DNA of 64,000 nt from Brachyhypopomus gauderio (Eukaryota > Chordata > Actinopteri > Gymnotiformes > Hypopomidae): NCBI RefSeq assembly GCF_052324685.1, contig NC_135222.1, forward strand, positions 10,275,873-10,339,872, given 5' to 3'. Under the pieces are notes generated by a model, which saw only the letters and a list, made by a program, of their open reading frames with translations, did no database searches and was not told the origin of the DNA. Below are positions 14,526 to 63,855 of the stretch, piece after piece. A program made the translations under genes and the position numbers. Within the stretch, counting starts at the first letter, position 1. Every line of letters begins with the position of its first letter.

Positions 14526-15937
14526 AGCTGTTGGGAACAGGCCTGGGAGCAGCCCTAAAGGCCAGACTCCTGAGGAGAGCGGCCGCCGCACAGACGCCAA
14601 CTCCTCCGTCTCAGACCTGGCTAACTCCGTCACGAGCGACATGCTGATGGTAAGAGAGTGAAGCGCACATGTGTGTTTGTGTGTGTGTGGAGTGTGTGTG
14701 CACGCATGTGTGTGTCCATGTGGAAGCATATTTTGTTGTGTGTTTTGATCTAATCCAGTCATCCATTGCTTATTATTCTCCTTTCCCACAATGCCCCTAG
14801 ATCACCATTGCTTCTGAGCGGGGCATAACATTTAACCACACAGTGCACTAAGTACAGGGTTGAAGCGCTACTCTCCCCCACTCCAGTTGCGCACACATAC
14901 ACAAATTTGTCAGAAAGCACTGGGTTTCAGCAAGAGCCCAGTAATTAGAGCTGGAGCTCTCTGCTATGGGGGCTGTAGGGATTTGTCTTCGCTGGGGATG
15001 CCTGTCATTATGTGGGTGGCTTGGCCCTTGTTTCTTTTAAACAACCTCTGATGATAACTAATGATGGTTCTTCCATGCTGAGTGACTGCCCGAGGGAACA
15101 GAGGCGGGGATCTTTGGCTGCCCCCAGACCTGGAGTCAGGATTCAACCTCTTGGCAGGCAGCTCATAGGTTTTCGAGGCTAGAGGGGCAGGTGGGGAAGA
15201 GACTTGTGTACTCTGAAATGGCAAACTCCTGCCCAAGAAAGAGGCTTTTGTAAGGATTGGTTATGTGAGAGATATGATTGTAGGCCCTAATTGGAGTGCT
15301 TATGCACACATAATTTTGCTTTGATGCATTTTTTTCCCCATGGTTATGTTGAGTGATGAGTGGTGTGTCTTGTGACACAGTATGTCTGCACATTTTGAAT
15401 TAACAGTTATAAACAGAGGGAAAGAGGCTGGTTAGTTTATTTATGTAGTGCCAACACAGTGTAAAATCAGATTTTAACCTGTCTCTCTCTCAGTTGTCTC
15501 CTGGCTCTGAGGAAGAGGAGCACGAAGGCCCAGTGTGTGAGAAACTTGGCCGTATCCAGTTCAGCGTGGGCTACAGCTTCCAAGACTCCACACTCACAGT
15601 CAAAATTCTCAAAGGCCAGGATCTACCTGCAAAAGATTTCTCTGGAACCTCAGACCCTTTCGTCAAAATCTACCTATTACCAGACAAGAAGCACAAACTG
15701 GAGACCAAGGTCAAAAGAAAGAACCTTAACCCACATTGGAATGAGACCTTCCTGTTTGAAGGTGGGGAACAGTTATTCAGGTAATATCAGTTACACTCAG
15801 ACAAGGCCCTATGTTATAGAAAGTGTTATACCACACAGCTGTGTTTGCAATTAATTGGATTGCTACCTCTGTTTTCTCTCTCTTTGAAGCATTGCTACTG
15901 AAGCATTGCACTCTGATGATAATGCAAAACTCTTTCT

Positions 15938-29389: not shown

Positions 29390-32300
29390 ATGGCTGCTGC
29401 CAGGAGCGATGGAGGGGCGTCAGAGCACATCGACATCTACGACGACCTAAACACCGAGGAGGTATGAGGAGGGAGCAGGGGCCCAGACCCACCACCCGCT
29501 CCACAGCAAACTCTTCTGCGAAGCCAGGGATGGAATTTTAAAAGAAACTTTTTTTTATGACGAGTAACATCACATTCCTATGTAGTTTAGATTCACTCAA
29601 CCAGCTACTACGTCTACTTTGGCTGATCAGTGTTGTCCTCTGAGGTTGTAACGAACCATTTTAACCCATACAAACGTGCATTGCGATGTGACATCAGATT
29701 GCAATGTTAAACTTATTCTCTACATACAATAACGGGTGGACGCATCTTCAGAGGTGTTTTGGCCATATAGTTTACTCCTAATGTCCAGTTCTCTGCATAC
29801 AGATAGAGCTCATTCAGGTTGACACGACGTTGTAGTTGTGAACCGTCATCAGGGAAAATCGGTTTTAACCTCAGAGCTAGAATGCAAAAGATAAACATTC
29901 TTTCAATAACATTGAATGATTGAAACAAGTAGCCCTAAACAAAGCTGCCATTTATAACACACATCCCATTCTTTGTGCCAGATTTTTTTCCCTTCAAAAG
30001 TGTTTTTGCCCTTTAAATGAGACGCATACCTGGCACATTAAATTTGCTCTTTAACCTCTCTGCATTAATTTTCTCCAGAGAGGCATGAAGTCGTGTAGCC
30101 TTCTCCCTGAAGCTGGACAGCATCTTGATGTGATGCCATGGGAAACAGCCCACTCATAAAACACTCGTGTGTCTGCAGGCTGGTGACTTCCTGACGAACG
30201 AAGCTGATGCTCTCTATGACGATGTCTTGACCGGATCTGTGAGTGGTGAGAGAGAACCAGGCAAAGAGCATTCTAAGGAGGTTGGCAAGCCATCCATAGT
30301 CTACACATATAAAGGATGCATGGGAGATAAATCCAAGAGGTTTGCTGTTTATGTGGGCAACTTCTCCTGGGTAAGCTGACTTCATTCTTCAGTCCTAGCA
30401 TGAGTATAAAGGTTGTTTATGATGTACCCGCTGCTGTAATCTTGGGCTGATATACGTGTTTTGCCATTTCTTTTTCTTCATTCACTCTAATTGGTCAACC
30501 GTCATCTTTATGAATCCTGACCCAAGTGGACTTCAGACAAAGATTTAATATCAATGGCAAGAACACTAGGGGTTAAAGATGTTGTGGAGATTAAGTTTGC
30601 TGAGAACAGAGCGAATGGTCAGTCAAGAGGGTGAGTCCACCCCCACCCCAAACCCCATCCACACTGTCTACTGTCATGCCCATGTTTAAAACATTTTGTC
30701 TCTGTGTTCCTCACAGCTTTGCTGAAATGGTGGTGTCCACAGAGGAGTCTTTGAGGCGGCTAATAGACATGATGCCACAGTGTCAGATAAACGGGGAGAA
30801 AGTGGACTGTCGCTTCGCCACACGCCAAAACCTGGCTGTGTTCGAGGCTCAGGCCAAAAAACGTGAGGGTTTCCTTCACAGCACTATATGAAAATCAGTA
30901 ACCTGTGCTAATGGATTCAACAGTAAGGGACTTGTTCTGATAAGGTCAGGCTAGGTCAGCATTTTAATGGTAATACCCCATGCATGTTGTGTTTTCCACA
31001 CATCACCCAAATGAGCGCATCACTGCATATAAAATGCATTACCTGACCATTAGCAAAATTCTGTGCATGAATATCAGCACAGGAGCCTTATAAGTAGTGA
31101 TATGAAGGGGAGATTGTATGCAGTCCAGGTTTAAGAGTTTTATCTCCTTTAAACTCAGCAGGCCATGACTAGACACACCTCATGACATGTCAGGGGTCTT
31201 GGAGCAAGATAACTACAAAGGGACCGGCTGCATTACTGGTCATCAGAGTAATATGAATATTTCCTTCTTTCTGGACAGGCATACCTCAGCGCTCAAACTC
31301 CAAAGCAGAGTCGGAGAAAACTGAAGGGCGTTCTATGATTTTGTCACCTACAGAGCTGCCAATGCCCCCTTTCTCTCCAATGTACCCCCCTCCCCCACAC
31401 ATAGCCAAGCCTCCTTGCCTGATTCACTCCTTTTTTAACCCTCCTCCCTTACCCTTTCCCCCGCCCCGCCTTCAGACTCCACCCATGCCACATCTTTACC
31501 CTCCACCCTCCCCTCACATCCCCAGCACACACATCCCCTCTCCTCACATGCCTGGCACACCTGCGCCATCGCTACACATCAACCCCGCCTTCTTCTCCGC
31601 CGCCCACGACACCCACAACAGCAGCACAGCGTACAGCCAACACAGGTGAAGATAAACCATTTTTGTTTGTATGTGTGGGACATGCTACCATTAATATTTT
31701 TGGTGTTTAGGTCGCTAGATGTAAATGTGGCTATTTATCAAAAAGATAGATATCATAGATTACAAAATACTTTACCAATGAGTGAATGCTGATAACATTT
31801 ATCAAAACTGCTCTTTTTTGTATCTTCTTTGCTGTGACACACTTAAATCTCCTCAAGACTTTAACAATTACATCACAGGTGGAACCGGGTGTGTCAGTGA
31901 AAAAACACAAACATGCTATGTGTGTGGTCTGTAGTTCTGGGACTGAAACCCACTGGCACAAGCAGCACTAGAAGGTGTTAATTAATTAATTAACACATTG
32001 CCTCATTTAATGTTTTCTGAAAAGCCACCACAAGGGATGAAGTTATTACATTTTACACGTCAATAAAGGGGAGGTGGTGCGGGGTTTCATCTGGGTGATA
32101 ACTTCGTCAGAACGTGTGTAAGGGGAGGCGGAGTGTGTTTTGAGAAATAACAAGCCGGTGTTCACCAGGGAGGGGGATGTTCCTACGGCGCTGCAGTCAG
32201 ACGGAGAGTTTGAAGAGCTGATGAACAGGAACAGGACCATTGCGAGCAGCGCCATCACTAAGGCCATGTCCGGAGCCACTACAGGTCACAGCTTCACAGA

Positions 32301-33138
32301 TTGCTTGTGTTATACCAAGCTAGTGTTGTACCATTCAGTGGCTTATTTTCAGAGATTTTATGTGCTAGTATCTTGGTATGAAAAGCATTCGACAAGCAAG
32401 AAGACAAAAATTAGACAATAGACTTCACTGCATAACTGAGCATCATGTGCATCATGTATGTAAAACTGTAAAACAGCTGTATTTTCTTTTTGTAATTTGT
32501 AACCTAGGTTTAAATTGAGCAGTGATCACGTTTAAATCATGGATTAATGGATATGGATATGTCTCCTTGATGGCTTTCTCCCTTTAGGTGACATTTCTAT
32601 GGCCATTGAGACCCTCCTCACAGCCATAGCAGTGATCAGACAGTCTCGGGTGTACAGTGATGACAGATGCCGGGCACTCGTTGACTCCCTGAAAGACTGC
32701 CTGTATTCCATAGAGAGCAAGTCCTATGGATCTCGGTGTGTATGCACTTTGTCGGCCATTTCTTGCACCTATACATTTTTGTTACTCAAGAATGTTAATG
32801 TTTAATAATTTTATTTGGCCCTGTATTGCTCATTAATAATAAATTATTAGGGCAATATGGTGTCACCTGAAAACATGTTCAGCATCTTATTTATGAGTAT
32901 CTTCTCCAATAAACTCAACCTCTCCAGGAAGAGGCACCGGTCTCGGGAGAAGGAGCGGGGCCGTGAGCGCGTGCGGAGCAGGGATCGGAGCAGGGATCGG
33001 GCCAGGGAGCGCTCACACAGCCAGGGCTGGCCAGACGGAAGCACGCTGCGTCGGCATGGCGAGCGCTCGGTCAGTGCAGAGCGGGAGCGGGCGCGCGAGC
33101 GGGAACGCCATAGGGAACACCGAGACAAGCATCGCTAG
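29390..33138 (+). CDS. cpsf7: Cleavage and polyadenylation specificity factor subunit 7 (CFIm59), 8 exons
   Basis: CPSF7 is the 59-kDa large subunit of cleavage factor Im, which with NUDT21 binds UGUA motifs in nuclear pre-mRNA and steers poly(A) site choice. Exons: 29390-29461, 30179-30370, 30527-30630, 30717-30862, 31279-31645, 32145 (or 32169)-32284, 32588-32735 and 32928-33138. The protein is 459 (or 451) aa; human is 471. Order: acidic N-terminus with DIYDDL and ALYDDVL; an RRM with RNP2-like AVYVGNFSW and RNP1-like [14 protein letters not shown]; a Pro-rich centre encoded by exon 5; a conserved helix ([20 protein letters not shown], then [12 protein letters not shown]); and a C-terminal Arg/Glu/Ser/Asp-rich domain ending EHRDKHR. 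The exon 6 acceptor is ambiguous (AG before 32145 or before 32169); both keep frame and differ by 8 residues. Confidence 0.95.
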
Positions 33139-50039: not shown

Positions 50040-53000
50040 ATGCCGGGCATGGTGATGTTTCGGCGGCGGTGGTCAGTTGGCAGTGATGACCTGGTGCTGC
50101 CCGCTCTCTTCCTCTTCATACTGCACTGCATATGGTCAGTAAGTGTGCGTGTGTCTGTCTGTGCGTGTGTGTGTGTGTGTGATGAACTGATTTATTTATT
50201 TCCATAATCACTGTTCACTTTGGTTTTAATATGACATAATTTAGTGCCATCAGCCAACTCTTTGTATCTGTGTTTCACCATTGAGTTCAGCTTCGTGAAT
50301 TGATTTGAGCACATACTTGACTGACTCAGACAAAATTATAAATGATTCAACATAGACATGACTTTGACTCTGCACTGGTCATGTGGGCTGAATGTATAGT
50401 GACTTTAATATAACATGTTTGAGTTTGCTACCTTGCATCATCTCTGCGAGGAATCAGTAGTCAGAGTGTAGGCCATAAGTTAATGAAAGCCACTGTGAGC
50501 TCAAGCAAAGCAGTTTAGCTTAGCGTATCATAAAATAGAGACACTTTTAAGAAGAGGTAAATGGCTATAGGAGTTACAGGCAAACAGCTCAAGACATGGT
50601 CATCGTTTTCTGCTCAAATAATAGGAATCATGATGTGTCCAAATCTGTGTCTATGTGTTATTCACTCAGGCTGGTGGTTCTGTCCGTGGTTCTGTTTGGC
50701 CTGCCGTACGGGTTGGGCCAGTCCTGCTCCGTCACTCTAGTAGACCATGGCCGTGGCTACCTGGGGATCCTGGTCAGCTGCTTGATCTGTGAGAGCGCCA
50801 TCATGTGGTTGAGCATGCGTGGTAGCATCCTGTATACCCAGCCCAGGGAGGCCGTGCAGTACGTCCTTTATATTCGACTAGGTAAGACACACTCTCTCTC
50901 ACATGCACACACGCACACACCCCGTGTAGGCTCTGTCTACCTGATCTACTCTGGTTCAGTTATGTATCTCTCTAATTGTTGTTATGGTGGCCGGCGTCAG
51001 CAAGAGGAGGATGGGTTCCCCCCTGAGTCTTGGTTCCTCCCAAGGGTTCTTCCTCATGCTCTTAGGGAGTTTTTCCTTGCCACTGTCGCCCCTTGTCTTG
51101 CTCACTGGGGGCTAGGACTCGGACACTTGTAAAGCTGCTTTGTGACAACAACTGTTGTAAAAAAGCGCTATGTAATTTTTGATTTTGATTGATTGGGTTT
51201 CCTGTAACGATGTGTTTGCTGCCTGTCCGCGTTCCACAGCCATCCTACTGGTGGAACTGGTCTACGCTGTGGTGGGTATCGGCTGGCTGATGCAGTATTA
51301 CCAACCCTGCTCTGATGTCACTGCCAAGAACCTCGCCCTGGGTGAGGATGCGTGGTGGGCTGTACAGCAGCACTGAGAGATGGCATGACCCCATGGTATA
51401 TATTTAGGAGAGAGGCCAGGAAGAAAGAAAGATACATGGAAACCTTGGTGACCCTGGTCATTTAGGCTGTGTAGGGAATCATGTAAAGCCTTTACTGCAC
51501 AGCCTTTTTTAAGACTGATTTCAGTGTGTAATAATATTCTCAGTGCAGAATTTATTAAAGAGCATTTTAAAAGCAGTAACAGACTAGTAACAGACTGAAT
51601 CAAAGAAATCACATCTTGGTGATTTCCATTCCATCCACTAAAGTGGGACCCCTCTATAAACTGTGTGTGTGTGTGTCCGTGTGTGTGTGTTGCAGGAATT
51701 GTGGTCTGTAACTGGTTGGTGATCTTCAGTGTGTGTTTTACCATGATGTGTACGTTCGATCCCACTGGTCGAACCTTCGTCAAGCTGAAAGCCACCCGTC
51801 GCCGCCAACGCAATCTGACGACCTATACGCTCAGGTACCACACACACCCTAAATACGCTCAGGTACCACACACACCCTAAATACGCTCAGGTACCACACA
51901 CACCCTAAATACGCTCAGGTATCTTGCACACAGCCTAAAGTCCGAGTGTACACACTCTGGTAAAATGCTTTTGACCTAAACACTCAGGTAAAAAGAATAT
52001 GACCTAAACGCTCAGGTAAAACACATACAGAAAAGGTGTTGCTGACACATACCTTATGATCTAGCTGGCTAGCCAATAGGATTGGGTAGAATTCCCAACC
52101 GCGCAGCCCGTTGTTAGGGTTCCAGCTTGTGGGTCATTTTTTGGATGCACACAAACGGTACCCAGTCGGCTTTTCTAGTTGACTTGATTAACAAACCAAC
52201 TTGGGTGCAGCCCCTTGACAACACTGGTTCAAGTTTCTTCTCTTTTGGTCATACTGCCATCTTATTTTGTATAAACTATTTCACGGTGTCCCCATTTCTG
52301 TATATAAAATGCTGCTGAATTTGGAACACAAATTGTCCCTAAAAATGTTTTCTTCCCTGAGATAACCTAAACACTCAGGAAAAACATGACGCATGGGTAA
52401 AGTGACCATTGTGTACAGGCAAAAAACATGGGTACGACAGACAGGTGTAATAGCCGTATTTGTGGTTTGTATTTTCTAAACAGTGCATTGAGTTTACAGT
52501 TGCTTTCCCTGTCTGTCTGTCTGTCTTTCTCTCCCCTCACTTCTCTCTCTTTTTCAGACACAGGCTAGAGGAGGGCCAGGCCAGCAGTTGGAGTAGGAGA
52601 CTCAGGTTCTTCATGTGCTGCACAAGGGCCCAAGATTCCCAGTCTGTTAGTACATACACACACTTGCACTAAAGCAATTTACTGGCTCCACTAAGAGTTT
52701 ATATCTTTATAACCACTATTTATCTAAGGTGTGTGGAAGAATCCGCTCTACTCACTGTTTACATCATAACCGCGCTGGACTGAAAAGAATCAGTATGGGT
52801 TATACTGCATTCAAAGCCGCTTACCCTACTCTGCAGCAGAATTATGGGCTTCTGGTTTTAATTTTGTAATTACATGTAAATGGTCTGAGTTGAATGTCTT
52901 TTGTCAGGACGCATATTCAGAGGTGGCCAGCCTCTTCGCCGAGTTCTTCAGGGATCTGGACATAGTGCCAAGTGACATCATCGCGGGCCTTGTTCTCCTC

Positions 53001-53592
53001 AGACAGAGACAGAGAGCCAAGCGATCCGCCATCTTGGACCAGGTATGAGCTGATGGAGGAGCAGCTGGTGAGCTTTGAGTTATTAAGCTGCTTTTGCTTT
53101 ACAAAATTAACCTGCCACTTACTTCCCCTTAGTCACAAAAGCTACTGCAACCTTTAGTTGCCAGTTTTTTGGACATGGATTAAGCAGTCTTGGAATAAAT
53201 AGTAATGTTTGTGGTGATTCACCAATGCTTCACTTTAGTCTAGGTTTAAGGCTATTCTTGGTCAGGGAAATCGGCTCATAAGGCAGATACTGCAGTTATT
53301 TACTAGTAAGGACTTTAGATACCATACTGGTACTATGGAATGTTCTAGAACATTAACACTTGCTGTGTGTAAGGGCTCTGGAAGGGCCCCAGCCCTAGTA
53401 AGCTGAGGTCCGCAGGGAGTGGGCGGTTCAGAGCAGGAATCTGTTCCGTTCCCAGAGGAAGAGCCAGCCAGGCCCTTAAAGTGCAAATTAGGCTGAGAGT
53501 GCAAATTACTATGTGTTCTGTATGCATGAGAATTGACATGACAGTTGTGTGCTCCCCAACTCTCTTTCTCACACACACTATCTGTCTATCTA

Positions 53593-53631
<39 letters not shown>

Positions 53632-55160
53632 CAAACAACAACATTATAGCCTTCCTGTCCGGTATGCCTGTAACACGCAGCACACGCTACTTGGACCTCA
53701 AAAGCCCGGTAAGGGAGGGAACGCATGCGTGCCTTTATGTGCATCAATGATCGACTGTTCCAGGTGTTCTGTGGGTCATACGGTTTGAGTTTGACACGCA
53801 TTTCCTCCCTGGGCCTGGTTGTGTTTTCCAGATGGAGATGGCCATGTATAAGGAGGTGTGCTACTACATGCTCTTTGCTATGGCTGCATATGGCTGGCCC
53901 ATGTACCTGCTAAGGAAGCCTGCCTGTGGGCTCTGCAGGCTCCTCAGTTCCTGCCCGTAAGCCTCCCTTCAGACACCAGAACATCTGTACTGGACACCAG
54001 AACACCTACACTGGATATCGCACAGGGCCGTCATACTTGATATGAAACTTCGCTAATAAAAAAAAAAATGTAATCCTGTATCTGCTTGTAGAATCAATTC
54101 TAGTGATGAATGATGATTAATAATGATCTCTCTGTCACTCTGTCTCCATCCCTTCCTCTCTAGCTGTACATCTGGGTCCGGTTCGCGTCTGTCGCACTCA
54201 GTAACAGTGGAGGAGGACAACTGTTGTGGCTGCAACGTCCTGGCCATCCGCCGCCAGTTTTTAGACCGAGACCTCAAACAGGTTCAGATCGTCTACACAT
54301 CTTGCCATGACGCGGTGAGCATCCAGTCTGACGCCTTCAACCAGGACTCACTTTAAGCTCAACGCTAAAATGACAAGAGAAGGTTCTTCTGATCCTCCAG
54401 TGATTCATAAATTCGCCATTGTGTCACATCGAAGAAAGGCTGGTTTTGTTTTGGCTGAAACTATGATTATACTTCTCAAGAACTGTCTAGACCTCCAAGT
54501 CTCATCAGATAAAGAAGAAAAGGAAGTTTGAGCCTCCGTGTGAATCTAAACACAGAGAAATTCCTTAATGCTCCAATTTGAACATCATTACCTGTGATCT
54601 GAGCCAGGACAAAATAAACTTACTGATTTTCAAACTCTGGGCTACAGTGCAACAGTGTGGAGAACTGACAACTTAAATTATATATCTCACAATCATCTTG
54701 TTGACCTTCTTCCTGAATTTTACTTCCTGTCTTCTCTTTGTTTGTGTTATGTTAATGCTTTGTATAATTTGCTGTTGATCTATTGCATGATAGAGCTGTG
54801 CGACTCTCAAGTAGGACATGTATGTGAAGTATACCATTTTTTATTTTAGGTCTATGAGACACCTTTCTATGTAGCAGTAGACCATGGGAAAAAGAAAGTT
54901 GTCATCAGTATCAGGGGGACACTGTCACCTAAAGTGAGCCTTAACCTGCAATCCATACGCACTTGAACTCCTAAAAAACAAATAATACACTGAATAGGCT
55001 GAAACTACAGTGTTGGCTGTGTGTGTTTGTGTCTCATGATTTCTCACTGTCTATTTCTCCGTCTCTCATACTTTGTCTCAGGACGCACTCACTGATCTCA
55101 CAGGAGATTCAGAACGTTTGCCTGTGGAGGAACAGCATGGGGTCTGGCTTGGACATAAGG

Positions 55161-55213
<53 letters not shown>

Positions 55214-58117
55214 ATGTCTTTTGTAAAACAAATGTGTATAAGCTCAACAAAGCAGCAAAATATGATCTGTCTTTCTTGTGATATATATCTCCCCATCGCT
55301 CCTTCTCTCTCCCCATCGCTCCTTCTCTCTCCCCATCTCTCCCCTCTCCCCATCGCTCCTTCTCTCTCCCCATCGCTCCTTCTCTCTCCCCATCGCTCCT
55401 CTCTCCCCATCGCTCCTTCTCTCTCCCCATCTCTCCCCTCTCCCCATCGCTCCTTCTCTCTCCCCATCGCTCCTCTCTCCCCATCGCTCCTTCTCTCTCC
55501 CCATCTCTCCTCTCTCCCCATCTCTCCTCTCTCCCCATCGCTCCTCTCTCCCCATCGCTCCTTCTCTCTCCCCATCGCTCCTTCTCTCTCCCCATCGCTC
55601 CTCTCTCCCCATCGCTCCTTCTCTCTCCCCACCTCTCCCCTCTCCCCATCGCTCCTTCTCTCTCCCCATCGCTCCTTCTCTCTCCCCATCGCTCCTTCTC
55701 TCTCCCCATCTCTCCTCTCTCCCCATCGCTCCTCTCTCCCCATCGCTCCTTCTCTCTCCCCATCGCTCCTTCTCTCTCCCCATCGCTCCTTCTCTCTCCC
55801 CATCGCTCCTTCTCTCTCCCCATCGCTCCTCTCTCCCCATCGCTCCTTCTCTCTCCCCACCTCTCCCCTCTCCCCATCGCTCCTTCTCTCTCCCCATCTC
55901 TCCCCTCTCCCCATCTCTCCCCTCTCCCCATCGCTCCTTCTCTCTCCCCATCGCTCCTTCTCTCTCCCCATCGCTCCTTCTCTCTCCCCATCTCTCCCCT
56001 CTCCCCATCTCTCCCCTCTCCCCATCGCTCCTTCTCTCTCCCCATCGCTCCTCTCTCCCCATCGCTCCTCTCTCCCCATCGCTCCTTCTCTCTCCCCATC
56101 GCTCCTCTCTCCCCATCGCTCCTTCTCTCTCCCCATCTCTCCTCTCTCCCCATCGCTCCTCTCTCCCCATCGCTCCTTCTCTCTCCCCATCGCTCCTCTC
56201 TCCCCATCGCTCCTTCTCTCTCCCCATCGCTCCTCTCTCCCCATCGCTCCTTCTCTCTCCCCACCTCTCCCCTCTCCCCATCGCTCCTTCTCTCTCCCCA
56301 TCGCTCCTTCTCTCTCCCCATCGCTCCTTCTCTCTCCCCATCTCTCCTCTCTCCCCATCGCTCCTTCTCTCTCCCCATCGCTCCTCTCTCCCCATCGCTC
56401 CTTCTCTCTCCCCATCTCTCCCCTCTCCCCATCTCTCCCCTCTCCCCATCGCTCCTTCTCTCTCCCCATCGCTCCTTCTCTCTCCCCATCGCTCCTTCTC
56501 TCTCCCCATCTCTCCTCTCTCCCCATCGCTCCTTCTCTCTCCCCATCGCTCCTCTCTCCCCATCGCTCCTTCTCTCTCCCCATCGCTCCTCTCTCCCCAT
56601 CGCTCCTCTCTCCCCATCGCTCCTTCTCTCTCCCCATCGCTCCTTCTCTCTCCCCATCGCTCCTCTCTCCCCATCGCTCCTCTCTCCCCATCGCTCCTTC
56701 TCTCTCCCCATCGCTCCTTCTCTCTCCCCATCTCTCCCTTGATCCCTCTCTTTCAATGCTTGCACAGGGAATGGTTTACTCTGCAGAATACATAAAGAAG
56801 AAACTGGAACAAGAGATGATTCTGTCTCAGGCCTTCGGCAGAGATCTGGTGTGTTCCAATGCGCTGCATTCTCTTCCTTGGCGTTGTGACCGTGTTGCTC
56901 TGAATCGAGCTCTGCTCAACTGTCTGACCAGCAGCACTGTGCTCTAGCGTCTGTCCTCTCGCCCAATCAGAGCAAAGGAACCATGCATTACGGGCTGGTG
57001 ATCGTGGGCCACTCCCTAGGTGCTGGCACTGCCGCCATTCTCTCTTTCCTGCTCCGCCCCCAGTATCCCACACTGCACTGCTACTCCTACTCGCCCCCCG
57101 GAGGCCTTCTCAGGTGGGTGAGACTTGTGGGTGCGTTGGGATCTTACTCTCAACACCAGTTTGGGGCATTAGTCTCTGTGCCATTGCCACTGCTCATCAG
57201 ATTACCCATATCCTCACCCTTTCTGGTAATTCTATTAGAGGTTGGATGAGACACAATTAGTTAGACCAAGAGAGGCGGAAATGATGGGAAAGTCCATTAG
57301 GAGGACGTAATAGGTTCTTTGCTGTGGAGGATTGTCTAAATGACTTCAGTAAAAACCTCCCATCCTTATCTGTTAAGTGTGTTTTGGAATGCATAGAAGC
57401 TCCTTGCTGAGTGGGCCCTACACATGTGAACCAAGCCCTTGGGAGCACGCCCTGAGGTTTGCTTGATGCTGACTGCATATGCTGTGTCTTTTTCACAGTG
57501 AAGATGCTATGGAGTACTCAAAACAGTTCGTTACGTCCGTGGTGTTGGGAAAAGACCTCGTCCCTAGGTGAGCTCTGCGGAACGCCTGCATCAGTTTAGG
57601 GTGTGTCTGCATGTGTCTGGTTGGGTCATCGTTTTGTTTTGCATTTTCTCCTCAGGATCGGCCTTTCACAGCTTGAGGGCTTTCGTCGCCACCTACTTGA
57701 AGTCCTACAGAAGAGTGATAAACCAAAGGTACACACACGCTCACACACAAAATTCTTAAAAAGCAATGACGGGCAGCCCTCTGGTTGAATGCATGTGATG
57801 TTTCCGCCCTGCGTAGTGTATATACCCCTATGGGAATGGTGGGAATGGTCAGTGTAATGTAGCAGCTAAACCTCTGTACCCTCAATGCACTAAGCAGCTT
57901 CCAGCAGGGACCAATCACCAGGCGACATCTGCACGAGTGCGGCTCCTGCCACACGTTTACAGCCCAGCCAATCGCATCGCTCGGTTCTCCCTGCACAGCC
58001 TCGTCCACCTCACTTCCATTTCACTCGCACAGCACAGAATAACTTTCAGCCTTGGCCTCTCTAATCACTTACGTTAAGTGCACAGGTTTCTGAGGAATTC
58101 ATTCTCTGTATCTTCCA

Positions 58118-58165
<48 letters not shown>

Positions 58166-58589
58166 CTCTCTCTCTCTCCCCACCTCTCAGTGGAGGATCA
58201 TTATAGGGGGCACCAAGTGTATTCCTAAGACAGAACTGCCTCTGGAGGATGAGGTCCCATCTCAGGGCGTGACGCCCTCCAACTCCCGCCTGTGTCTACA
58301 CCCCAGTGACCTGAGCATTGCCCTGTCTGCCTCCACCCCACTCTACCTGCCTGGCCGGATCATCCACGTGGTTCACAACCACCCGCCAGAGACCTGGTGG
58401 GGCAGGGCATGAGTGCCCCATACTGAGTGTTTCATGTTTAATTATTGAACATTAGTGCTCAGTAATTGAAAATGATAATGCATGAATATTTGGTGTTTTT
58501 GTTTGTTTTTGTTACTGGGAATTAGCATTTCTATTCCTGAAATACTACTACATATTCTTTTTCCATTCTTATGTCCTGTCCCCCACCCC

Positions 58590-58621
<32 letters not shown>

Positions 58622-59150
58622 TACTCTGTCTCTCACTCTAGCTGTGGTCAGGAAGAGCCCACATATTCAGCTCTGTGGGGGGATAACAAGGCCTTTGATG
58701 AGGTCATCATCTCCCCAGCCATGCTGAATGAACACATGCCACACGTGGTGTTGGAGGGCCTCAACAAGGTGGGGGTGGTTGTGTGGTGGGTGTGTGGGAT
58801 GGGCCAATGTGTGTGCCCGCGCATGTCTGTGTGTGTATGTACGTACACGTGCATGCATCTGTAATTTCGTGCTTTTTCTGAGTGTCCCGTTCCTGGGACT
58901 GTGCTCTCTGTGTGTGGGGGGCTGGACTGTGGCACTGGAGGCTTCTGATCAGACCCAGCGCAGCTGAGCTTCGAGAGGCGGACACAATGCGAATCAGCAA
59001 ATCTGCCGCTCTCTTAGCAACACGAGTCATCGCTTTAATTAGCTCGATTCTGCAGACGGCTTGCTGTGGAGTGGCCTTGGGTTGTGTTGGGTTACATACC
59101 TCTCCTTCCTGTTTGGCAAAACTGGAACTGGGCATATCAGTGTTGCAAGG

Positions 59151-59210
<60 letters not shown>

Positions 59211-60456
59211 ATGAGAGAAAGGTAAACCATATGTGCCTTGCTGTGTGGAGGTCTTGGTACATTCTTCTTCTCTTTAGCTTTGATTTTTTTTTCCAGTTTG
59301 CTCTCTTTCCATCACTGTGGTGTCCTGGGTGCTGTGGACAGTCCTGATGCTCCTCGATCCTTTTTTTCCAAACACCCCCCCCCCCCCCCCCACCCCCGAG
59401 TCTGTCTGTGCATCCTACTATGTGAGTTGGTCATTACTAATATGTTCTGGTGTGTCTCTACAGGTGCTGGAAAACCCATTTTGCCTTTCAGAGCCAATCG
59501 CTGTTGAAGATGAGGATGCTAGTGCTCCAGTTGCCATTCAAACCCTACCAGACTCTCCCCTCACTCCTCTCATTGCAGACGCCCCCTTTGTGCCCCCCGC
59601 AACCCCACCAGCATCTCAGACTCCTTTGCAGCTCCAGCCCCCAGCTACCCAGGAAAGCTCTCCAATCCCCACTGGTGCTGTTAACCTGCCAGTGCTAGCG
59701 TCACTGTCAGATGCTCAAATAATGAAGCCTTCTCCAGCTGGAATGTGCTATCTGTCCGATATCCGAGACCCGGCCGGCACGCCTTCGACACAGGCAGACG
59801 GTCTGGCTTAATCTGGGATGCAGAACAAAGATCCAATAACACTGCTACTTAATCAAGCAGCATTGTGCCGTCAAAACCATTTCAGATAGCATTTCTTCTA
59901 GTCTGCTGCTGACGTATCTCTTCCCACAGCACCACAAACAGATTCTTCTTCAGCTGCTCCTCCGCAAAATATCCCACACAATCCAAGGGCCTCAATTACC
60001 CCCAACACCCTCCACCAACAGTGGCTCGAATCCATAGTGCCAGAGCTCATGGCCATAGATGGATGTCCCTAATTCTTGTCTGCGCTCCCTGAGATCCTTG
60101 GAAGTTGCACTCCAACAGTCCAGTCCGTTTCTCAGGACCCTGGCGAGCCCGCAGATCTCCTCCACCCAGCTGCTCTGTCCTTCGACGCTTTCACAGGGCC
60201 ACCGATCACCTTTCTTTTTACACCTCCAAGCGAAATCTCCAGGATGTGCGGAGAGTGCTGTTCAGGCTGCAACTCCTCAGTGTCCAGGGTGGAGTCCCAC
60301 ACCAGCTCCATCCAGGCCGACCACCTCCTCTCCATGCTGCTGTTTACCTGTTAAACCCCTTGCATTTACACCTGGGCTTTGTGGTGTACGACTGCTGCAT
60401 GGTGTGCTGCTCTCCCACCTTTCTCCTCTCCCTCTCTATGTTATAGAGAGAGAGAG

Positions 60457-60540
<84 letters not shown>

Positions 60541-63500
60541 CGCGAGAGTGAGAGAGTGTGTGAGTGTGAAAGTATCATTATTGTAAACTACAGAGTACAA
60601 ATGACCTCCTTCCCCTCAATCGTCTCTTCCCAAATGTTTCCTGTGTTTCTGTGCACCCTGTCACTGGTGACCCCTCCACCATTTCCGCTGGGAAAGGAGA
60701 CCCTGGAGTTGGTGTTTCCCCTTGTGCGTGGCTTTACAAGCTTGTGCTATGTGCACTGCCTGCTCCCTCTGCTAGCGGTGGCGGTGTAGAAATAACATTC
60801 TGCATGGGTTGTTGTAAATTGAGATGGTCTTCACCTCACTGAGATGGTCTTCTACTCGGTGCTGAAATGATTTATGACTACTAGAGTTCAGACCCCCCCC
60901 CCCTTCAACAGATCACATACAGTTTCATGGTCATATTTACATTATAAATAACTCCTTTTAGTGGGAGGACGTTTACAGGATTTTCATACAACATTCTGTA
61001 TCTGCAACCAATCTGGTTGCCTCGTTAACCAGGGATGCAGCCTAGAGAAGGCTGTGTGTGCAATCTGAGCTGGGCCTGTGTAATGTACTCTGGCTGTCAC
61101 TCATGCAAGGTCATGCCTGTAAGGCCCACTGTCATGCCTGTAAGGCCCACCTGGATTTATGTTCCTCTGATACATTTGTGTGTCATGCACTGATGCATTT
61201 TCGTGTGGGTGTGTGCGCATGTGGCCATCATTTCAGCTATTTATTCTTGCTTTATGAATTGAATTATTACATGTATTGTTCTGTGAATGTTTTAGTTATG
61301 TTTATGCTCATTAATAAAAAAAACAACTTCCTCTCAACATAGTGGTTGTGTGACTGGAGTTGTGTGTATAAGGGGTGTGTCATTTGTTTGTTATGTTTGT
61401 GATGTTTGTATCTGCACATCCTGCATGGTCTCTCCATAGCAGTCATTTTCCATTAACTGTCACTCAATATAATGGACAAAGCATTTAATCCTGTGGAAAC
61501 CCTGTTGGATGTCTAACAAAGTTTCTGGGTAACACCTGACATTTTAAAGAGTTAGTATGCAATACTAAGTCATTTCAGTAATTTATTAATACTGTTTAAT
61601 TATACGTCTCCTAACACATCATGCTGTTTTATAACGATGTAATTGACTATAAGCACATCAGCTTAACCTTACCTGATAATTCCCTACAGCTAAAATAAGT
61701 ACATTTTAAATATTATATTAATATATTCAACATAGGCTAGACCAAGTGCAACTGTGAAGCAGTTGGAATTTAGAAAAAAAAATACCTTAACAATATTGTC
61801 CCTTTTGATACATGTTTACAAACATTTCATCTGGAGGTTTCAGGAGGGAATCTGTTGCGTTTTGTGAAGTACTGATGTTCTACGGTAATACTGAGTTGCA
61901 TTGGATGGCTTGCGTATGGCACTGTATAGTTGCAGTTCTGCAGTTTTTGAGAGGTATGTGTGTGAGGGAGAGAGAAAGCGAGAAACAAAGTGTAAAGGAA
62001 TTAAGAGACTACAGAAGCTTGGGTGAAACGCTCAATAATGCTGTCTGTACATTTTCATAGCGTTGCATCATTTAGCATTTTGACTCATACTTGCAGGAGG
62101 CCAACATGATGTCATCAGCTTATTACAAAGTTTTACTTTCCCTCCCCCCTTTATATCTGTCACACTTGAAGGTTTTGGAAAACTACAATAAGGGGAAGAC
62201 AGCCCTTCTGTCAGCTGCCAAGATCATGGTTAGCCCCACGGATGTGGACCTGAACGCTGAGACTGTCTTCCTTGGGGCCTCCAACTCCCAGCAGCCCACA
62301 CCCCCCACTCACCACCGAAGGAACAGTAGCGTCCGGTGAGTCCTTCTTGCTAACCCTATGGGAGAGTAGACAGACAGTAACACACACCTGCACCTTGGAA
62401 GGGGATACAGTCAGCTAGAGCTGTTGTTTTTAAGGATGTGGGCTGGCTAGAGAGAATTGGTATTCTGCCTTGAAACAAATTTGAGCATTTCTTGGGAGGT
62501 AAAGTTAGCTGTACTGTGAATGCAGAATGTCAAATCAGTATTACTTGGTTATCTCTGTTGATTACTTGTGGTTTATCTTTGTTTTTCTGTCTTTGTTTCT
62601 GCTTCATATACCTGTTTCATATACCTCTTTTGATTTATATTATGTTTATTTTGGGTATATATATATATATTTCCTGTCCTCCACAATTTCTTATTCTCTC
62701 CTCTCGGCTTGCAGCTCCTGTGCACGCTCCGAAATCTCTCTGGATGGTTTTTCGGAGTGCCCCCCTCCACCTGTGCCCGTGGTGCTGACGGGTGCCCGCG
62801 AGCGGCTGACTGTGGAGCTGCAGGAGCGCAAGGCACCGCTAGCGGTCATGGAGAGCTTGTCTGATGTGGACTCCATCTACAGCCTGGACTCCCGCCGCTC
62901 CTCCGCTGCCCTGAGGGGCTCTCCATGCCTGGGCTCACTGCCATTCCCCCTGGACGCCCCCATCCCTGAGGAGAACCCGTCTTTGAGCTCACGCACCGAG
63001 CTTCTAGCAGCAGACGGGCTGCTCCAGTCCTCACCCGAGCGGGAGCTGGGAGAAGCCGGCCCCTACTGCCCCTCGCCGCCACAACTCATCCTGCCTTCCA
63101 ATGGGGGCCATCGCCTCTTACCTGCCAACCCACGGCACAGCGGTCACTTCCCTCCGCTTCTACTTGGACAGACCGTTATAGGTCATCCAGGCCGCCAGAG
63201 GGCGAGCTTGCGGCCCCCTTCGGCAGTGTTTGAGGCGTATAAGCAGTCGGGTGTCCCCATCAGCCGGGAAATGAAGCCCGCCACACCCTGGACCGGTCCT
63301 GATGGGGATGGTTGTGAAGAGAATGCGAGAGATGGAGGAGTGGAGAAAAACACGCAGAGCCAGGCAGAGGTCAGGGTGGAGCCGAAGAGTGAGCTTTCGC
63401 ACACCATGCCAACGGTAACCCCACTCTCCAATGGGAACCCCAGCCAGGCTGTGTTGGAGTTCGCCCAGTACCTCGACTCTCTCTTCAGGCTCGATGGCAG

Positions 63501-63855
63501 CAGCTCTCCTCCTCTGGAGCTCTCTGACGCAGAGTCCGAGTCTGGTCGTGGCTCCTGCAGTCAGACGGAGGGCCAGTGTGATGAACAGCATGGGGAGAAC
63601 TCGGACAGGGACAAGCAGCTTCTAGCTAGGGCCACGCTAGAGCCCAATCTCGTCCCCAAACCACCTCGCACCTTCGCCGGATCTGCTGACCCCTCGTCAG
63701 GCATCTCTCTCTCTCCGTCCTTCCCTTTATCCTCGTCGGGAGAGATGAATGAACTCTCACCCCCGGATGGACCACTGACGGTCAACCACTCCACACTACG
63801 AACTTCCACTGCCTGTCCTTACCCTGAGGAAAACACAATATCATCCATGGTGTAG
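50040..63855 (+). CDS. dagla: Diacylglycerol lipase alpha (19 coding exons, 1096 aa)
   Basis: DAGLA is an sn-1-specific DAG lipase of postsynaptic membranes that makes the endocannabinoid 2-AG. Exons: 50040-50134, 50670-50881, 51240-51341, 51696-51834, 52558-52645, 52908-53042, 53631-53708, 53832-53956, 54164-54314, 54850-54933, 55082-55159, 56768-56848, 56971-57113, 57499-57567, 57656-57728, 58191-58396, 58642-58768, 62172-62335 and 62715-63855. All phases close: 3291 nt. The start [21 protein letters not shown] equals the mammalian N-terminus. Four TM helices lie in residues about 20-155. The lipase core has GHSLG with nucleophile Ser471, Asp523 in LGKDLVPR and His651 in NEHMP, matching the human triad to within one residue. 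The tail has LESLSD-type [22 protein letters not shown] (a Homer-type PPxxF) and [21 protein letters not shown]. Human is 1042 aa. Confidence 0.97.
50955..51195 (+). repeat. 3' fragment of a dispersed teleost retroposon-like repeat
   Basis: The block contains GGGAGTTTTTCCTTGCCACT, AAAGCTGCTTTGTGACAACA and AAAAAGCGCTATGTAA and ends in a TGATTTTGATTGATTG tail. This string order is, from memory, a very common interspersed sequence of teleost genomes, usually with a degenerate ATTG-type 3' tail as in non-LTR retroposons. It lies in the dagla intron between 50881 and 51240. The family name was not resolved. Confidence 0.6.
51827..51924 (+). repeat. 28-bp minisatellite copying the dagla exon end and 5' splice site
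   Basis: The unit ACGCTCAGGTACCACACACA plus CCCTAAAT is repeated with 28-bp spacing; identical ACGCTCAG|GT steps end at 51834, 51862, 51890 and 51918. The first copy is the real exon end (51834). Diverged copies with CTCAGGTAAAA occur further on, near 51990, 52015 and 52375. Confidence 0.93.
53598..53628 (+). repeat. (TC)n run fused to a dagla 3' splice site
   Basis: A run of about 15 TC dinucleotides leads directly into the AG acceptor (CTCAG, exon at 53631), so the microsatellite itself is the polypyrimidine tract. Confidence 0.9.
55162..55209. repeat. (AC)n microsatellite directly after a dagla 5' splice site
   Basis: About 23 AC dinucleotides begin two or three bases after the donor GTATAC at 55160. 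Intronic CA runs so close to a 5' splice site are known hnRNP L targets. Confidence 0.95.
55281..56745. repeat. 1.46-kb pyrimidine-rich minisatellite, 17/20-bp units
   Basis: Roughly 79 tandem units. The 20-bp type is CCCCATCGCTCCTTCTCTCT. The 17-bp types are CCCCATCGCTCCTCTCT, CCCCATCTCTCCCCTCT, CCCCATCTCTCCTCTCT and CCCCACCTCTCCCCTCT. They differ by loss of TTC and by point changes. Rare variants such as CCCCACC recur about every 230-400 bp (near 55628, 55857 and 56261) in similar neighbourhoods, showing higher-order duplication. No unit contains a stop codon in any frame on either strand, which creates false open frames of about 500-600 codons. It lies in a dagla intron. Confidence 0.97.
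58120..58180 (+). repeat. (CT)n run upstream of a dagla 3' splice site
   Basis: About 58 bp of CT end about 10 bp before the CACCTCTCAG acceptor of the exon at 58191. Confidence 0.9.
58584..58622 (+). repeat. Poly(C) plus (CT)n run upstream of a dagla 3' splice site
   Basis: About 14 C followed by ten CT dinucleotides, about 20-60 bp before the acceptor of the exon at 58642. Confidence 0.85.
59153..59200. repeat. (GT)n microsatellite in dagla
   Basis: About 24 GT dinucleotides between the exon ending 58768 and the candidate alternative exon at 59464. A poly(C) run at 59375-59390 lies further on. Confidence 0.9.
59464..59811 (+). CDS. dagla: Candidate alternative terminal coding exon of dagla (115-residue tail)
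   Basis: After the exon ending 58768 (LEGLNK, phase 0) there is a strong acceptor: TACTAAT branch-point consensus at 59435-59441, then TGTGTCTCTACAG ending at 59463. The exon opens in the correct frame with [19 protein letters not shown] and runs 115 residues, Pro/Ser/Thr-rich, to TAA at 59809-59811. The canonical downstream exon (62172) also opens with VLEN ([10 protein letters not shown]), so the two exons are competing continuations that share the same first four residues. An AATAAA at 61313-61318 followed by a GT-rich stretch could end the transcript. The product would be 777 aa with the complete catalytic triad but without the long C-terminal tail and PPxxF motif. I do not recognise the tail. 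Confidence 0.55.
   Translation: MLENPFCLSEPIAVEDEDASAPVAIQTLPDSPLTPLIADAPFVPPATPPASQTPLQLQPPATQESSPIPTGAVNLPVLASLSDAQIMKPSPAGMCYLSDIRDPAGTPSTQADGLA
60441..60560. repeat. (AG)n-(GT)n-(AG)n compound microsatellite
   Basis: Short AG runs flank about 35 GT dinucleotides (60460-60528). It lies in the putative 3' UTR of the short dagla isoform. Confidence 0.9.
61313..61318 (+). terminator. dagla: Candidate poly(A) signal of the short dagla isoform
   Basis: AATAAA in TTAATAAAAAA, followed within about 25-75 bp by a GT-rich stretch (GTGGTTGTGTGACTGG, then GTTGTGTG and TTTGTTTGTTATG), the normal layout of a cleavage site. It is 1.5 kb after the stop of the alternative terminal exon and upstream of the canonical last exons. 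Confidence 0.5.

Follow-up and report, generated by a model that had tools for sequence, protein, structure and literature searches.

A putative alternative last exon of dagla in Brachyhypopomus gauderio would exchange the long C-terminal tail of DAGL-alpha for a short one

Results

The window, by which we mean the whole 64,000-nucleotide stretch of DNA that was analyzed, corresponds to C12:10275873-10339872 in a genome of 796 Mb and 840 contigs. On its + strand lies a gene that we take to be dagla from its DAGL-alpha landmarks (Table 1). In the rebuilt exon model, the 17 joined exons shared by both forms described below encode a stop-free product of 662 residues, the lipase part of which matches Lipase_3 in Pfam (E 5.2e-9) and, in the PDB, two distant lipases. 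The catalytic landmarks GHSLG (Ser471) and VVHNHP (His613/615) are both found before the junction at residue 662, with the positions of the triad taken from the human enzyme. A search of the 796-Mb genome with the lipase part gave nine matches, seven in dagla itself and two on contig C3 that are taken as DAGLB, and revealed no second copy of dagla. The DAGLB-like gene on contig C3 (last exon L014:4922-5119) has a short tail, without a long C-terminal extension. Elsewhere in the window, an exon-like stretch of a neighboring gene at 15449-15781 contains a C2 domain (Pfam E 2e-20) and is presumably SYT7-like, and the exon-like stretches of one or more neighboring genes at 30134-33135 are presumably CPSF7-like, a name for which Pfam offered no support.

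Table 1 Features of dagla and of the near exon, in window coordinates
Feature	Coordinates	Strand	Basis or remark
Shared coding exons of dagla, 17 (residues 1-662)	50040..58768	+	Open joined model, Lipase_3 match
Last shared exon, ending in phase 0	58642-58768	+	
(TG)25 array upstream of near exon	59152..59201	+	
TACTAAT branch-point-like site	59435..59441	+	Sequence; branch A 23 nt from AG
Near exon (putative alternative last exon), coding part, 115 codons and TAA	59464..59811	+	Sequence, periodicity, joined model
Putative 3' untranslated part of near exon	59812..61312	+	
(GT)35 array in putative 3' untranslated part	60460..60529	+	
AATAAA	61313..61318	+	Sole AATAAA/ATTAAA between 58.7 and 64 kb
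G/T-rich stretch after AATAAA	61329..61388	+	72% G/T, eight TGT
Canonical next exon, starting VLENYNKGK..., weak acceptor ending TTGAAG	62172..62335	+	3.4 bits
Canonical last coding exon, with PPRTF	62715..63855	+	

Two endings can be joined to the last shared exon, and both joined models are readable. Continuing through the two canonical exons gives the canonical protein of 1096 aa, while joining to the exon at 59464, referred to here as the near exon, gives a short form of 777 aa. An earlier note on this DNA had proposed that both endings follow position 58768 in the same phase, and the two open joins agree with this. The near exon has its own phase 0 acceptor, which reads TGTCTCTACAG/GTGCTG and allows it to join in frame, as well as its own stop codon (TAA, 59809-59811) and poly(A) signal. 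The TACTAAT site and the 115 open codons that had been described for it are present. The acceptor of the near exon reaches 9.3 bits, compared with 3.4 bits for the canonical exon at 62172, which bears out the suggestion that the near acceptor is the better of the two. Real dagla acceptors span 3.4-13.1 bits, with the canonical 62172 acceptor the lowest (n=18). However, between 58790 and 62700 another five AGs reach at least 9.3 bits, one of them within the near exon (59579), so that the near exon has a good acceptor but not the only one of this strength.

The AATAAA at 61313 is followed, as previously noted, by a G/T-rich element. When G/T content was scored over 60 bases, starting 10 after the AATAAA, this site ranked first among the 45 AATAAA of the window and also exceeded the 18 hexamers found over the following 7.1 kb. 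The region of the near exon is single-copy in the 796-Mb genome, which rules out a repeat or transposon as its source, and a search for RNA families returned just one bacterial match, far under its gathering score.

The near exon carries a coding signal. Its three-base periodicity (G = 37.4) was not reached by any of 5,000 dinucleotide shuffles (mean 6.2, maximum 28.0). Overlapping non-coding windows equaled or exceeded it in 87 of 13,465 cases, and the 25 highest listed all fall within the tandem array found at 48.3 kb. When a position model is trained on either half of the exon and applied to the remaining one, it selects the same frame there, a result matched by 0.14% of 4,842 and 0% of 4,825 null windows for the two directions. 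The start of the signal can be placed only roughly, with the best position at 59485 and 59449 almost equal to it. Codon usage is low for dagla and less convincing than periodicity. The log-odds of 0.12 bits per codon is below that of 14 of the 18 real dagla coding blocks, and is attained by 3.2% of 93 open, overlapping background windows. With a codon model trained on the canonical tail alone, no background window (0%) attains the near-exon score; with training on core exons only, 7.5% of windows do so, and within the near exon a wrong frame scores higher than the right one (0.065 versus -0.009).

Open length by itself is weak evidence for the exon. The 249 acceptor-like sites of at least 7 bits (131 on the + strand and 118 on the - strand, with real dagla acceptors excluded) lead into 17 open frames of 115 codons, including the near exon and some frames in real exons, and two further frames, of 117 and 175 codons, are open at ~60.1-60.6 kb. 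The frame stays open in 1.8% of near-exon shuffles and 0.43% of intron shuffles. These counts of open frames, together with a codon score that lies inside the background tail, are consistent with C-rich intron sequence being open by accident behind a good acceptor, as a cryptic exon with no function. We consider such an accident improbable, as the periodicity of the near exon is far above that of its shuffles and is the highest among the 17 acceptor-linked open frames, the next reaching 21.2, and because the exon opens with the residues VLEN.

As the earlier note had pointed out, VLEN opens both the near exon and the canonical exon at 62172, and these two exon starts are the only places where it occurs in the six frames. 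The first 12 bases of the two exons are identical at 10 positions, and GTTTTGGAAAAC is matched at 10 or more of its 12 bases in six other positions on the + strand, from which we estimate only ~0.02 chance matches at the region's 221 AGs. The same note had explained the shared start by exon duplication followed by divergence. This explanation fails past the first 12 bases: the best local DNA alignment of the two exons joins unrelated places and is equaled by 4.4% of 500 shuffles, and the protein comparison gives a shuffle-like score (46.7% of 1,000 shuffles), so that we rejected a tandem exon duplication beyond the start. A duplicated exon start is possible, and it is as likely that VLEN is needed after the lipase fold. 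The 115-residue tail has no Pfam match and no similarity to the DAGLB tail (62.6% of 2,000 shuffles equal the score), and a scan of viral contigs gave no relatives. In prokaryote contigs, a contig of the bacterial group KSB1 held a match of 31%, which was taken as a chance effect of proline-rich sequence and not as a true relative.

The codon pattern of the near exon continues in the same frame for ~435 bases past the TAA, through 59812-60246, with a margin of 44 bits that 0.26% of 4,253 null windows equal, and the preference is gone in 60247-60435. Further in-frame stops occur at 59887, 59899, and 60070. Within this region, 59902-60069 shows the preference (0.56% of null windows), and 60073-60246 shows it weakly (2.1%). 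The extended frame resembles the canonical tail with a similarity score of 62, which 1.7% of shuffles equal; for the part after the stop the figure is 0.3%, or 2.9% against tail residues 291-434, and for the other two frames it is 67% and 97%. The alignment is gapped and driven by proline, and we see no more than a suggestive likeness. In the near-exon frame but behind the stops, a PPITF occurs at 60199-60213 that may be due to chance. From the codon pattern, we are inclined to think that the tail was formerly longer and was cut back by stops, and it is perhaps eroding.

Two rival explanations start from the pattern beyond the stop. In the first, the exon is dying: a tail of once ~260 codons was cut by stops in this lineage, leaving a 115-codon remnant that is rarely or never used. 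Frame preference retained across three in-frame stops after the TAA, and weak codon usage in the exon itself, are consistent with such decay. However, the acceptor, the 115-codon frame, and the poly(A) signal are all intact, and the segment directly after the stop, 59812-59901, shows no frame preference when taken alone (65% of null windows equal it). We regard a dying exon as unlikely. In the second, the coding part is longer, with a small intron at 59801-59929 removed to give a tail of ~159 residues and a protein of 821 aa ending at 60072. Both ends of this intron are in phase 1, the joined frame is open, the acceptor scores 7.2 bits, and 59932-60069 favors the frame (2.3% of 6,136 null windows). 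Against it, the donor scores -1.2, with only one of 18 real donors lower, and 59803-59928, which would be removed, favors the frame too (2.7% of 6,290 null windows). We consider this longer coding part very unlikely.

Discussion

In dagla, the stretch from 59464 to ~61340 is probably a genuine alternative last exon, with putative use in RNA, judging from its sequence features. Splicing to the near, stronger acceptor at 59464, followed by cleavage after the AATAAA at 61313, would produce a 777-residue DAGL-alpha comprising the membrane and lipase part (residues 1-662) and a proline-rich tail of 115 residues (21 Pro, 16 Ala, 12 Leu, and 11 Ser). Otherwise, splicing would pass over the near exon to the weak acceptor at 62172 and yield the 1096-residue form.

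This tail swap would replace the 434 residues of the canonical tail, a segment with no match in the PDB. The canonical form has a single PPxxF motif, PPRTF at 1033, and five R..[ST] matches in its tail; the 777-aa form has no PPxxF, and its 115-residue tail has no R..[ST]. The part of the earlier proposal that described a short enzyme with the lipase part retained and PPxxF dropped is supported by the sequence, while the exon duplication that accompanied it is not supported beyond the first 12 bases. Mammalian DAGL-alpha reportedly uses PPxxF for binding Homer1 and residues 709-847 for binding ankyrin-G (PMC9356056). With the tail mutations of DAGLA patients, activity was reportedly kept and, in transfected cells, the enzyme was relocated to the perinuclear region (PMC11314389). 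Because these human mutations spare activity but shift location, the 777-aa form should, by analogy, be active but placed differently from the canonical enzyme. We infer that the short enzyme would still cleave diacylglycerol, without Homer anchoring or the phospho-regulated tail, and that it would act at another place in the cell.

The likeness to neuro-ocular DAGLA-related syndrome is that the tail is lost and the lipase part is kept, the syndrome being described as one of intact activity and changed location (PMC11314389, PMC12308783). The difference is that the mutations behind the syndrome fall in the canonical last part, and neither a replacement tail nor a separate exon is involved. The location of DAGL-alpha, a brain enzyme, sets the site of production of the endocannabinoid 2-AG. 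If the proposed exon is genuine, a natural tail-swapped DAGL-alpha would allow the need for Homer anchoring in retrograde signaling to be tested without disease mutations, and would show that what is harmful in people can, in another vertebrate, belong to the normal products of the gene.

The long and short isoforms of Drosophila inaE reportedly differ at the C terminus. The inaE gene resembles the proposed dagla arrangement in that one DAGL gene gives a longer and a shorter enzyme, named PD (2214-nt cDNA) and PA (1935-nt cDNA), and overexpression of either isoform is reported to extend lifespan and stress resistance (PMC4116436). Among the matches listed from the open-licence literature, no vertebrate DAGLA alternative last exon was found, but such isoforms may be present as predictions in gene annotation databases.

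Alternative last exons are a common feature of genes, and TDP-43 represses some of them. The near exon resembles these in that it precedes a distal ending, with which it would compete through an acceptor and a poly(A) site of its own, and the UG arrays around it are a candidate further likeness; no case of dagla was seen among the TDP-43-repressed exons in the part of the source consulted (PMC12586162). For mouse cortex depleted of TDP-43, the corresponding excerpt lists Dagla only as reduced (PMC6440020). The (TG)25 and (GT)35 arrays are possible sites for UG-binding proteins or splicing factors, but as the window holds nine pure (TG)12+ runs on its + strand, two such arrays near the exon are weak evidence. 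It is conceivable, though we think it a long shot, that the fish exon encodes the same loss of tail that causes human neuro-ocular disease, as part of a switch between synapse-anchored and free DAGL-alpha in which the strong near acceptor is set against a weak distal acceptor, while TDP-43 or other UG-binding proteins, bound to the two arrays, repress the near exon in neurons.

Tandem repeats are also found within the shared part of dagla. A 28-base tandem array at 51825-52021 overlaps an exon end and its donor CTCAG/GTACC, and because the array spans this donor, copies of the donor recur in the intron that follows. A C/T-rich minisatellite of 1.45 kb (55288-56737), with units of 20 and 37 bases, fills most of another dagla intron and stops ~30 bases short of the next exon.
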